Part shown: piece by piece, positions 6,605-22,266 of the stretch | Numbering within the stretch: the first letter of the stretch is position 1 | Layout of the letters: each line of letters begins with the position of its first letter | NCBI GenBank assembly: GCA_017560825.1 | Contig: JAFZED010000078.1 | Coordinates: 1 to 33,094, forward strand | Reading direction: 5' to 3' | Origin: Bacteroidales bacterium | GTDB lineage: Bacteria; Bacteroidota; Bacteroidia; Bacteroidales; UBA932 | DNA: 33,094 nucleotides | Notes under the pieces: model-generated | What the model was told of the DNA's origin: nothing | Database searches by the model: none | The model's input: the letters and a program-made list of their open reading frames with translations, nothing else | Made by a program: the position numbers and the translations under genes

Positions 6605-8368
6605 ATGAGAAGACTTTCAAAAGCCCTCCTTATTTCAGCAGTTGCCCTGACCGGAATCTGCAGTATCGAGAGCCAGGCCTGCACAAATGTCCTTGTGACA
6701 AGAGGAGCAAGCGTCGACGGCTCGAATATGATTTCATATGCGGCTGACTCACACGGCCTTTTCGGAGAACTTTATTATGCCCCTGCAGGCATCTGGAATG
6801 CCGGTGACCTGCGCAAAGTGTACGAATGGGACACAGGAAAATACCTCGGAGAGATCCCTCAGGCGGCAAGAACATACCAGAGAGTAGGAAATATGAACGA
6901 GCACCAGCTCATAATCGCCGAGACAACTTACGGCGGACGCCACGAGCTTGAGGACCCTAAGGGAATTATGGACTATGGTTCACTCATCTACATCGCCCTC
7001 GAAAGAGCAAAGACAGCACGCGAGGCTATTGATGTGATTGTGGATCTTGCAAACACTTACGGTTATTACTCAAGCGGCGAATCATTCTCAATCGCAGACA
7101 AGGACGAGGTGTGGGTTATGGACCTCATCGGAAAGGGTCCGGACAACAAGGGTATCGTCTGGGTTGCACGCAGGGTTCCTGACGGCTACATCTGCGCCCA
7201 CGCAAATCAGGCACGCATCAGCACTTTCCCGCAGAACGACCCCGAAAACTGCATATACGCACCTGACGTGATCACTTTCGCACGCGAGAAAGGCTACTTC
7301 AGCGGTGAGGACAAGGATTTCAGCTTCTGTGACGCCTATGCACCGCTGGATTTCAGCGGAATGAGAGGCTGCGAGGCCCGCGCCTGGTCAGCATTCAACA
7401 TCCTCTGCGACGGAAAATTCACCTTCGAGGACGAGAACGGCAACATCGTGACCAAAGACGCATATGACTACATAGAATATGCGATGGGACACGACAAGAC
7501 CAAGAGATTCCCGCTGTGGGTGAAGCCTGCGGAGAAGATCTCGGTAAAGGACGTCGCTGACGTGATGCGCGACCACTACGAAGGCACACCTATGGATATG
7601 ACAACAGACATAGGAGCAGGCGGAAACGCCCTTCCTTACAGATGGAGACCTATGGGCTTCGAGTACGACGGAAAGTCATATGTGAACGAGAGAGCCATCG
7701 CAACACAGCAGACAGGCTTCTGGTTCGTAGGACAGAACAGAAAAGACCTTCCTGATATGATCGGAGGCATCATCTGGTTCGGATGCGACGATGCGGCGAC
7801 ATCTTACCTGACCCCTATCTACACATCGACTTACGAGATTCCAGAGTCATTCCGCGAAGGTAACGGAAATATGCTGAAGTACTCTCCTACATCTGCATTC
7901 TGGATGACAAACCGTGTTGCCAACGCCTGCTACAAGGCCTACAACATTATGTTCCCGACAGTGGACGCTGAGATCGACGCGTGGGAACTCTCAATGATGG
8001 AGGAAGTGAAAAAGGCCGACAAAGAAGCCCTCGCACTTTATGAGGCCGCCAAGATCAGACCACGCAGAATGATAGCCCGCAACGACAGATCCTGCAAGGT
8101 TGTAGACCCTTACAAGGAGGTACGCAACTACCTTACAGACTTTTCTGTAAGCAATGCACAGAAGATCTTCGACAAGTGGGTGGCTCTGGAAGAGCTTCTG
8201 CTGGTGAAGTTCATCGACGGAAATGTAAAGGCTCAGAACGAAGACGGAAGCTTCAAGACAAACGGTCACACCGACCACATTCCTGACGGCATTTCGCAGC
8301 CTGGCTACACTGACAAGTGGAAAGAGGCTGTTGCCAAAGACCACGGCGAGGTTATAATTGAAAAATGA
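6605..8368 (+). CDS. C69 family dipeptidase, secreted
   Basis: N-terminal nucleophile hydrolase of peptidase family C69 (dipeptidase A/PepD type), which splits dipeptides. 587 aa. A signal-like N-terminus runs to about residue 25, and Cys26 begins the conserved CTNVLVTRGASVDGSN motif; in this family the Cys becomes N-terminal and catalytic after processing. The ISYAADSHG segment and YAPAG, typical of the family, follow closely. The start ATG has an A-rich upstream region typical of Bacteroidota. The last bases overlap the receptor gene by four (ATGA), suggesting translational coupling, and it is the first gene of the rightward operon. Together with the DPP7-type peptidase six genes on, it suggests periplasmic dipeptide production and cleavage. 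Confidence 0.93.
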   Translation: MRRLSKALLISAVALTGICSIESQACTNVLVTRGASVDGSNMISYAADSHGLFGELYYAPAGIWNAGDLRKVYEWDTGKYLGEIPQAARTYQRVGNMNEHQLIIAETTYGGRHELEDPKGIMDYGSLIYIALERAKTAREAIDVIVDLANTYGYYSSGESFSIADKDEVWVMDLIGKGPDNKGIVWVARRVPDGYICAHANQARISTFPQNDPENCIYAPDVITFAREKGYFSGEDKDFSFCDAYAPLDFSGMRGCEARAWSAFNILCDGKFTFEDENGNIVTKDAYDYIEYAMGHDKTKRFPLWVKPAEKISVKDVADVMRDHYEGTPMDMTTDIGAGGNALPYRWRPMGFEYDGKSYVNERAIATQQTGFWFVGQNRKDLPDMIGGIIWFGCDDAATSYLTPIYTSTYEIPESFREGNGNMLKYSPTSAFWMTNRVANACYKAYNIMFPTVDAEIDAWELSMMEEVKKADKEALALYEAAKIRPRRMIARNDRSCKVVDPYKEVRNYLTDFSVSNAQKIFDKWVALEELLLVKFIDGNVKAQNEDGSFKTNGHTDHIPDGISQPGYTDKWKEAVAKDHGEVIIEK

Positions 8369-19791: not shown

Positions 19792-22266
19792 ATGCAAGAC
19801 AGACGCTTCGGACATTTTGACGATCAGAATCGTGAATATGTCATCACAGATCCACAGACCCCTTGGCCGTGGATCAACTACCTCGGAAATGAGGACTTCT
19901 TTTCATTGATTTCAAACACAGCAGGCGGCTACTCGTTCTACAAGGACGCTAAATTCCGCCGAATCACCCGATACAGGTACAACAACGTGCCTATGGACAA
20001 CGGCGGACGCTATTTCTATATCAACGACAATGGAACAGTCTGGTCACCGGGCTGGAAGCCTTGCAAGACTCCGCTTGACTTCTACGAGTGCCGTCACGGA
20101 ATGAGCTACACCCGCCTCACAGGCGAGAAGGACGGCATCCGCGCAAGCGTTCTCTTCTTCGTGCCGCTCAAGACCTGGGGAGAGGTGCAGAAACTCACCC
20201 TCAGCAACACAAGCGGACAGACAAAGAAGATCAAGCTCTTCTCATTCGCCGAATGGTGCCTGTGGAACGCCGCCACAGATATGGAGAACTTCCAGCGCAA
20301 CTTCTCGACCGGAGAAGTGGAGGTGGACGGTTCGGTAATATATCATAAGACTGAATATAAGGAACGCCGCAACCACTACGCCTTCTACAGCGTGAATGCA
20401 CCAGTAAACGGCTTTGACACAGACCGAGAGAGCTTCATCGGACTCTACAACGAGTTCCGCGATCCTCAGAATGTGATGGCAGGAAAATCATCCGACAGCA
20501 TAGCGCACGGATGGAGCCCTATCGCCTCACACTACATCGAGGTAGAGCTGAAGGCCGGCGAGAGCAAGGATTTCATATTCCTCCTGGGCTATGTCGAGAA
20601 TGAGCAGGAAGAGAAGTTTGCAGAAGCGACTCCAGGCCTTCTCCACAGCGGCTCATCGCCTATAATCAACAAGGCAAAGGCCCAGCAGATGATTGCAGCT
20701 TTCGACACAACTGCGAAAGTAGACGCAGCCTTCTCTGAGCTCAAGGCCTACTGGGATGCCCTACTTGACATCTTTACAGTGAAGTCAGAGGAAGAGAAAC
20801 TGGACAGAATGGTCAACATCTGGAACCAGTACCAGTGTATGGTAACATTCAATATGTCACGTTCTGCATCATTCTTCGAAAGCGGTATCGGTCGAGGAAT
20901 GGGCTTCCGCGACTCCAACCAGGACCTCGTGGGCTTCGTACATCAGATTCCGGAAAGAGCACGCGAAAGAATCATCGACATCGCATCCACACAGTTCCCT
21001 GACGGAGGTTGCTACCATCAGTACCAGCCGCTTACAAAGAGAGGCAACAACGACATCGGAGGCAGCTTTAACGATGACCCTATGTGGCTCATCTTCGGTA
21101 CAGTCGCATATATCAAGGAAACAGGAGACTTCAGCATCCTTGAAGAGCCGGTACCGTTCGACAACGAGCCTGGTTCTGAAGTATCGCTTATGGAGCACCT
21201 CAGGATTTCATTCGACCACGTCGTGAACAACCTCGGTCCTCACAAGCTCCCTCTCATCGGACGTGCAGACTGGAACGACTGCCTCAACCTCAACTGCTTC
21301 TCTTGGGACCCTAACGAGTCATTCCAGACAACAGAGAACAAGACAGAGGGCTCTAAGGCCGAGTCACTTATGATTGCCGGACTCTTCGTAGTCTGCGGAC
21401 GCGACTATGTGGAACTCTGCAGAAACAGAGGCCTGAACGAAGAGGCAGACCGCGCACAGGCACTTGTAGACGAGATGGTAGAGGCTGTCAAGGAGCACGG
21501 CTGGGACGGAGAATGGTATCTGCGTGCTTACGACTTCTTCGGCAACAAGATCGGTTCTGACGAGAACGAGGAAGGAAAGATCTTCATCGAGTCACAGGGC
21601 TGGTGCACAATGGCCGGTATCGGACTCGAGAACGGAATGGTGAAGAAGGCCCTTGATTCAGTAAAGGAGCGCCTCGACTGCGAGCACGGTATTGTCCTGA
21701 ACAACCCGGCATTCACACGCTATTTCGTAGAGTACGGTGAGATCTCATCTTACCCTGCAGGCTACAAGGAGAACGCAGGTATCTTCTGCCACAACAACCC
21801 TTGGGTCATTATCGGAGAGACAGTACTCGGCCGTGGTGACTATGCTTGGGACTACTACAGAAAGATCTGTCCTTCATACACAGAGGAGCGCAGCGCCCTG
21901 CACAAGGTAGAGCCTTATGTATACTCACAGATGATCGCAGGTAAGGACGCAGCAAAGCCAGGTGAAGCAAAGAACAGCTGGCTCACAGGAACAGCGGCCT
22001 GGAACTGGTACGCAATTACCCAGTTCATCCTCGGTATCAAACCTGCCTACGATGGTCTTGAGATCGACCCTTGCATCAACCCTGAATGGAAGAGTTTCAA
22101 CGTCCGCAGAAAATTCCGTGGCGCAACCTACGACATCGACATCCAGAACCCTCAGGGCATCTGCAAAGGCATAGCTTCAATCGAAATCGACGGTCAGAAG
22201 ATCGAAGGCAACATCATCCCTCACACCCCAGGTACCCATAAGGTGACAGTGATTATGGGCCGATAA
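19792..22266 (+). CDS. GH94 cellobiose phosphorylase
   Basis: Splits cellobiose with phosphate into alpha-glucose 1-phosphate and glucose in the cytoplasm. 824 aa, no signal peptide, normal length. The sequence follows clostridial cellobiose phosphorylase closely from end to end: [77 protein letters not shown] segments near residue 360, and the ADWNDCLN motif (residues 492-499) that holds the proton-donor Asp. The residues around it, and the FNDDPMWL and [12 protein letters not shown] segments, match cellobiose rather than chitobiose phosphorylase. It is the last gene of the rightward operon, 21 bases after DPP7, and is followed by a strong hairpin. No cellobiose transporter or beta-glucosidase is in the window, so its link to the other operon genes is unclear. 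Confidence 0.93.

Follow-up and report, generated by a model that had tools for sequence, protein, structure and literature searches.

A composite Bacteroidales operon that joins a TonB receptor–DUF4876–DUF6850 unit to a peptidase–polyferredoxin module, with a probable tie to iron

What system is encoded when a TonB-dependent receptor shares an operon with two families of unknown function, an iron–sulfur membrane protein, two peptidases and a glycan enzyme? The question is raised by a 33,094-nucleotide stretch (the window) of contig JAFZED010000078.1, from assembly GCA_017560825.1 of a Bacteroidales bacterium of the UBA932 lineage. Its Pfam domains define eight genes on the plus strand between 6605 and 22266, which specify in order a C69 peptidase, the TonB receptor, a DUF4876 lipoprotein, a DUF6850 protein, a lipoprotein combining Mfa_like_1 and FISUMP domains, a polyferredoxin, an S46 peptidase and a GH94 enzyme. 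In the open reading frame (ORF) reading they are separated by −4, 7, −8, 13, 3, 12 and 21 bases, values that assume a DUF6850 start at 12384. A preliminary description made from the DNA letters alone had given these genes, ends and gaps, all of which are present; it had recognized the FISUMP part of the second lipoprotein and overlooked its fimbrillin-like Mfa_like_1 half. It had further taken the five genes from receptor to polyferredoxin as the core of an undescribed envelope-spanning uptake machine. Our comparisons indicate that the operon is a composite of two modules and a local addition, GH94, rather than one five-gene machine.

The receptor, DUF4876 and DUF6850 constitute the first module, a conserved unit. 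A survey of 295 genomes of the order, with DUF4876 present in 48, provided 64 DUF4876 loci, namely the window and 63 fetched stretches covering the listed places. At 54 of these the three genes follow one another in this order on one strand; among the ten loci without the ordered triad are some at contig ends and some whose genes the simple ORF caller missed or split. In a near relative (L091) all eight genes are identical in kind and order to those of the window and, together with the recurrence of the triad, this argues that the grouping goes beyond chance. DUF6850 is confidently predicted to form a β-barrel; it is not confined to the order, with matches in 29 of the 247 phylum genomes scanned, 22 of them above the cut-off. 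As the preliminary description had it, SusD is absent at E ≤ 0.01 from the 18 window proteins scanned. The partners of the 64 loci comprise a cassette of an ABC ATPase, a membrane protein and DUF4857 (30 loci), an OB-like lipoprotein and/or a PepSY_TM-like protein (23), a HEAT protein (10) and the polyferredoxin (10). In a 59-row tree of DUF6850, the window belongs to a nine-row group with five loci of the OB/PepSY type (support 100/100), and the polyferredoxin-type rows require at least three changes. One protein cluster (c6) was considered as PepSY and rejected, as it has no Pfam match; it is read as the OB-like lipoprotein, and PepSY was counted as cluster c7 alone. The HEAT proteins (cluster c8; for instance L024:5833-8028) are exported and about 730 residues long; they had looked caspase-like, but a search of the PDB matched their HEAT part alone, leaving the N-terminal half without a match. 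Peptidases also occur near triads at the 64 loci (S46 at eight, M16 at four and C69 at three, with one S46 and one C69 on the other strand); any enrichment of S46 at triads would be approximate, because the genome search scored about three S46 candidates per genome. Also seen at triads are a Met-zincin and a C1 peptidase that matches HmuY weakly, and ChaN adjoins one triad.

The second module comprises the polyferredoxin and the two peptidases. We followed it in the best 80 of 414 polyferredoxin relatives from a scan of GTDB species genomes (79 scorable), a choice by which the set leans to the window's kin. The nearest relatives are Bacteroidales metagenome-assembled genomes, many from animal guts to judge by their titles and some named Candidatus Cryptobacteroides. 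S46 is present in 65 of the 79 stretches, C69 in 36 and M16 in 15, while 43 carry two or more triad genes and some of the triad-less ones are short contigs; within the polyferredoxin's own gene run the counts are 61 for S46, 34 for C69, 30 for the triad, 18 for FISUMP, 15 for M16 and one for GH94. The five-gene core is not borne out by these counts, as in the window's family the polyferredoxin is tied more to S46 than to the triad, and the FISUMP/fimbrillin gene is found at no other DUF4876 locus of the survey. It matches at 34 of the 79 polyferredoxin loci, and at 15 its position, directly between DUF6850 and the polyferredoxin, is taken by an M16 protease. The preliminary description had left it to such a comparison whether the peptidases and GH94 belong to the conserved set: the S46 and C69 counts place both peptidases in it within the window's family, and GH94, seen at four of the 79 loci and in the same gene run in L091 alone, is a local addition outside it. 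The C69 protein, in which we take the N-terminal Cys after the leader to be the nucleophile, resembles dipeptidases (structures 5iau, 5imh and 5img match). The S46 protein likely has DPP7-like specificity because it carries FDGN where DPP11 has FDRN, the residue rule that we presume to separate the two.

The two modules have been linked and re-linked. The arrangements found include C69-triad-FISUMP-polyferredoxin-S46, C69-triad-M16-polyferredoxin-S46, C69-polyferredoxin-S46, polyferredoxin-triad-FISUMP-S46, S46-polyferredoxin-triad and polyferredoxin-S46-FISUMP-triad. In the survey of the order the polyferredoxin is present in 32 of the 295 genomes (34 full hits and one fragment); 13 genomes hold both it and DUF4876, and in ten of these the two lie within 10 kb. 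On a polyferredoxin tree of 52 rows (30 survey proteins of at least 560 residues and 22 hand-picked among the window and the 80-locus set), triad linkage needs at least seven changes; a row counted as linked when two or more of the three genes lay in the fetched stretch, so that short contigs may be mislabelled.

The polyferredoxin itself combines a membrane half bearing two CxxxCP loops with two 4Fe-4S ferredoxin motifs and a C-terminal row of HMA-like domains. Across nine polyferredoxins the CxxxCP loops, eight ferredoxin cysteines and the motif K-C-x-G-S are invariant; in the window protein the latter is KCYGSS, which replaces the CxxC of HMA domains and of which K, C, G and the first S are kept in nine of nine. 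The HMA assignment satisfies both the Pfam gathering score and the fold. A structural model built on 29 sequences (pLDDT 69.7, pTM 0.47), good in the C-terminal half alone, predicts two HMA-like folds (368-432 and 448-541) followed by an α/β domain as the third (554-669), with seven long helices ahead of them; Foldseek gave no match at E ≤ 0.001, the membrane half being barely covered. Judged by charge, the ferredoxin part would lie inside and the C-terminus outside, which is a reading, because the hydropathy scan returns nine partly overlapping segments and misses the helix at 120-150. The scores against the NCBIfam models for CcoG (32.2 of 316.7 bits) and NapH/MauN (58.1 of 213.05) fall short of both cut-offs.

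A hint as to its function comes from what it may replace. Among the 30 loci with the ABC/DUF4857 cassette, an OB-like and/or PepSY_TM-like gene is present at 21 and the polyferredoxin at five, and the two never occur together (P 0.0009, overstated because the loci are related), as if both did one job. Published passages (PMC13038864) count ferrisiderophore reductases among the PepSY_TM proteins and describe CcoG, which like the polyferredoxin has Fer4_5, as a cupric reductase. From this exclusion and these known reductases, our best guess is that the polyferredoxin is a metal reductase. A further Fer4_5 protein, at L028:15431-17299, was considered as a polyferredoxin, rejected and left out of the counts; it is FMN-bind/flavin-reductase-like and is encoded on the strand opposite to a nearby triad, in a stretch that has neither PepSY nor polyferredoxin. 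It is perhaps a third kind of reductase. At L029, L034, L036 and L037, an ECF sigma factor and a protein with a weak Metal_resist match precede the polyferredoxin (with a further small protein in three of the four), and the module may have its own regulator in these families.

What is the ligand? Loci of the DUF4876/TonB type are already in print as iron-starvation loci, so that calling the system undescribed was too strong, although the published passages offer no mechanism for them, and for DUF6850 we found no literature match. Iron depletion raises Porphyromonas gingivalis PG1019-22 20.8-214.5-fold, and in Bacteroides thetaiotaomicron it raises BT3625-33 36.7-128-fold and BT1933-39 3.5-7.4-fold, according to the passages of that report (PMC10434189). 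The rises under iron depletion make it likely that the ligand of the first module is iron-bearing. When hemin conditions were compared, a DUF4876 gene was listed with a log2 value of −5.42 (PMC10470040, in the passage available). PG1019 regulation is not a matter of iron alone, since excerpts of other studies show that it responds to polyphosphate (PMC4236598), is altered in a PG_0686 mutant (PMC10101095) and varies with an RNA-binding protein (PMC12119571), the last source also giving a shift of the PG1019 protein in a P. gingivalis mutant studied for growth in high zinc.

A second line of evidence is an 18-bp palindrome, approximately ATACCyATwwATrGGTAT, which precedes the receptor in many related loci. 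Its pattern derives from 12 training sites hand-chosen among the best matches, all in survey loci L002-L064, and was applied to a second set (L091-L170; several are close kin, and at least one, L114, shares its contig with survey locus L063, which has no site). At 18 bits, the 1.435 Mb of this set contain 16 sites (0.2 in shuffles), of which 11 stand no more than 300 bp upstream of a receptor; lowering the threshold to 14 bits gives 24 sites (4.0 in shuffles), 18 of these preceding a receptor. Sorted by gene, sites at 14 bits (and at 18 bits) mark 14 (nine) of the 40 triad receptors, one (one) of the 79 polyferredoxins, three (none) of the 26 C69 genes and four (four) of the 661 other genes; the palindrome before the receptor is thus frequent and not universal. 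The contrast between triad receptors and other genes at 14 bits (Fisher 9e-16) is overstated because the loci are related, and in the training set it is weaker (17 of 59 against 20 of 632, some of the 20 being divergent neighbours that share the stretch). The preliminary description had named several independently regulated units as what would speak against its machine; the operator goes half of that way, with 14 of 40 relatives carrying it at the receptor and 1 of 79 at the polyferredoxin. Genome-wide, the pattern matches 74 times in 16 genomes and its reversed control 26 times, with 12 of the 16 genomes above this control.

The palindrome may be the operator of a known kind of regulator. Of 16 sites viewed closely, hemerythrin genes adjoin four, including one that a DUF4876 receptor shares, and triads adjoin a few more. 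A hemerythrin gene is present in eight of ten genomes searched for it; seven of the eight were searched for sites, and five of these have the palindrome beside the hemerythrin gene. The adjacent regulators are LuxR-type in all three cases scanned, with FeoAB and flavodoxin beside two of these loci. The spacing of the palindrome fits the 7-2-7 sites of NarL-type regulators. In the passages at hand, the P. gingivalis member of the hemerythrin-LuxR regulator pair is CdhR (PMC10434189), which activates hmu (PMC10101095). The sites at L182, L184, L193 and L195 (each at 1501-1518) are accordingly candidate operators of a hemerythrin-LuxR (CdhR-like) regulator, common to DUF4876 loci. A search of BindR gave no useful result. 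In L091, C69 and the receptor are 64 bases apart, and a weak, degenerate palindrome lies in this interval, which is closed in the window.

We consider the chances about even that the operon combines an iron-type uptake module with a peptidase/polyferredoxin module acting on the imported iron ligand. The first module, here with the fimbrillin-like/FISUMP lipoprotein, would bind an iron-bearing ligand, which may be haem, a chelate, or a small iron protein or peptide, and import it across the outer membrane. The exported C69 and S46 peptidases would then trim its peptide part in the periplasm. Electrons from the cytoplasm would pass through the Fe-S clusters of the polyferredoxin to its HMA-like domains, and the metal would be reduced and released in the periplasm for ferrous uptake. 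What stands of the uptake machine of the preliminary description is thus the conserved receptor-DUF4876-DUF6850 unit with its predicted barrel, a linked polyferredoxin and a likely iron ligand; what falls is the single machine.

Several observations weigh against this reading. As regards one obligate machine, 54 of the 64 DUF4876 loci have no polyferredoxin in the fetched stretch, 24 of the 34 full survey polyferredoxins are not beside DUF4876, and 36 of the 79 near polyferredoxin loci have no triad in the fetched stretch. Of the 34 polyferredoxins of the order survey, five have S46 nearby (those of the window, L063, L045, L046 and L069) and two have C69 nearby (window and L063); the peptidase link is therefore mainly a trait of the window's family. 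As regards the reductase, the HMA motif has a single Cys rather than CxxC, Pfam gives no HMA match in the relative L029 at E ≤ 0.01, and the model of the membrane half is of low confidence. HMA domains usually bind copper or zinc. PepSY_TM-like genes taken alone are never seen with the polyferredoxin across all 64 loci, where about 2.2 cases are expected (P 0.07), and CcoG, in the passage cited above, acts on the cytoplasmic side (PMC13038864). As regards iron, about half of the 16 palindrome sites viewed adjoin genes with no discernible iron tie. The window has no palindrome, its best score being 10.0, inside the receptor gene, so that iron control of its operon is plausible by kinship. The host assembly (2.06 Mb, 82 contigs, 77% complete, one DUF4876) encodes one Fur-family protein and no clear FeoB, its eight weak FeoB_N matches being read as general GTPases.

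The rival that survives best, which we nevertheless regard as somewhat improbable, is that two independent units stand side by side, with the first module serving iron uptake and C69-polyferredoxin-S46 serving another task in peptide processing and electron export, for instance the reduction of disulfides in periplasmic proteins or peptides ahead of their degradation. No single gene run is commoner than C69-polyferredoxin-S46 alone (13 of 79 loci), the operator marks triads and not polyferredoxins, and the neighbours of the 24 polyferredoxins distant from DUF4876 include T9SS surface proteins and a SusD-type receptor pair, besides S46-M16 and the ABC/DUF4857 cassette. The repeated re-linking in many orders, with at least seven changes on a tree of selected rows, and the proximity of the modules in ten of the 13 genomes that have both are harder to square with independence, as is L149, where a strong palindrome site lies between divergent polyferredoxin and receptor genes.

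A special case of joint iron uptake, in our view an improbable one, is protease-assisted import like that of Fus, whereby a whole small iron protein or haem peptide would be imported and cut, and its iron reduced and released. Against it, the window has no M16, S46 and C69 are broad-use exopeptidases, and YddB/PqqU is now tied to PQQ. The assortment of peptidases at triads, namely S46, M16, C69, the Met-zincin and the C1 peptidase with its weak HmuY match, and the M16 protease directly between DUF6850 and the polyferredoxin would suit it. The published passages on Fus point both ways: the system takes iron from ferredoxin via a receptor and a protease, but PqqL and YddB do not support growth under iron limitation in LB (PMC6793856).

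That the metal is copper or zinc, taken up or handled in place of iron, seems to us distinctly unlikely. The HMA-like domains and the weak, sub-cut-off Metal_resist match beside some polyferredoxins lean this way, as do, in the passages seen, the cupric reductase CcoG, a PepSY_TM protein proposed as a copper reductase (PMC13038864) and the change of the PG1019 protein in the high-zinc mutant study (PMC12119571). Set against these, the nutrient-limitation data that we found for DUF4876 loci, in published passages, concern iron or hemin, and the operator-sharing hemerythrin-LuxR loci have FeoAB or flavodoxin alongside in two cases. Uptake of vitamin B12, a peptide or a glycan is very unlikely, as the NCBIfam B12-receptor match of the receptor's plug region that suggests it is weak (30.2 against a curated cut-off of 599.7 bits) and GH94, its other support, is not conserved and has no SusD beside it.

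Table 1. Coordinates of the operon genes and of the candidate signals around them
Feature	Position in window	Strand	Basis
Putative Bacteroides-type promoter	6501..6532	+	−7 box TAAATTTG at 6525-6532; weak −33 TTTC at 6501-6504; read directly
C69 family peptidase with leader, module 2	6605..8368	+	E 1.2e-80; below NCBIfam equivalog cut-off (153.1 of 250)
TonB-dependent receptor with CarboxypepD_reg, module 1	8365..11190	+	Pfam
DUF4876 lipoprotein, Cys17 lipobox, module 1	11198..12391	+	E 1.1e-39; solved relative 4q1z
DUF6850 outer-membrane beta-barrel (predicted), module 1	12384..13919	+	Pfam; predicted barrel
Mfa_like_1 + FISUMP lipoprotein, Cys17 lipobox	13933..15504	+	Pfam; lipobox
Polyferredoxin, 669 residues	15508..17517	+	Fer4_5 x2 / Fer4_18 / HMA (Pfam)
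S46 dipeptidyl peptidase with leader	17530..19770	+	Pfam; FDGN motif
GH94, cellobiose-phosphorylase type, no leader seen	19792..22266	+	3qde, 1314.5 bits
Hairpin with T run, likely terminator	22300..22334	+	14-bp inverted repeat followed by TTTTTGTT

A scan of the window for sigma-70 promoters returned sites no more numerous than in shuffles; the upstream promoter can be read as one of Bacteroides type by its −7 box, and a similar −7 box and leader are kept upstream of C69 in close relatives. The strong hairpin downstream is present, although terminator-like sites as a class are not above chance in the window scan. An Rfam search of the window gave no match at gathering scores. Divergent from the operon, at 5609-6509, lie a nitroreductase and a 136-residue exported protein that has no Pfam match; ORFs of about 341, 159 and 136 amino acids flank C69-polyferredoxin-S46 in relatives too. 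Downstream and apart from the operon are an esterase-like protein and GH95 glycosidase pair (24724-28097) and, on the minus strand (28201-31822), an Omp28/BACON protein and a 740-residue protein lacking a Pfam match.

The operon has the order receptor, DUF4876, DUF6850 by which a DUF4876-type iron-depletion locus is recognized. PG1019-22, BT3625-33 and BT1933-39 resemble the window in that the TonB receptor adjoins DUF4876, and BT3625-33 also includes a fimbrillin family protein, as the window does (PMC10434189, in its available passages). There, the inner-membrane partners of BT3625-33 are PepSY_TM, ABC and DUF4857, and a HEAT protein is listed for BT1933-39; unlike in the window, the published passages name neither a polyferredoxin nor a peptidase at the three loci. 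Fus and other protease-associated import systems share the clustering of a TonB receptor with exported peptidases, and M16 is found in the window's relatives (e.g., L063); the window differs in having S46 and C69 in place of M16, in lacking any match to a FusB-like TonB domain among its eight proteins at E ≤ 0.01, and in its additional lipoproteins, barrel and polyferredoxin. The ferrisiderophore reductases of the PepSY_TM type and CcoG are, from the passages on them, membrane redox proteins that reduce metals, as the polyferredoxin may, and CcoG is a membrane Fe-S protein too; the polyferredoxin belongs to a distinct family set apart by its row of HMA-like domains and by scores far under the CcoG and NapH cut-offs. 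SusCD systems share a TonB receptor with CarboxypepD_reg and a partner lipoprotein, but the window has no SusD and its one glycan enzyme is not conserved.

These results assign DUF4876 and DUF6850, neither of which has a known function, to one conserved uptake unit. This unit gains a candidate operator common to a hemerythrin-LuxR regulator, which makes the regulon directly testable. The polyferredoxin likely stands in for reductases of the PepSY_TM type, a point of relevance to the release of imported iron in anaerobic gut bacteria. More tentatively, and with the balance of probability against it, the system may represent a new form of metal piracy of gut Bacteroidales, in which an iron protein or peptide brought in by receptor, lipoprotein and barrel would be stripped by exported peptidases, and reductive metal release in the periplasm by the ferredoxin-fed polyferredoxin with its HMA-like domains would replace the PepSY_TM reductases.

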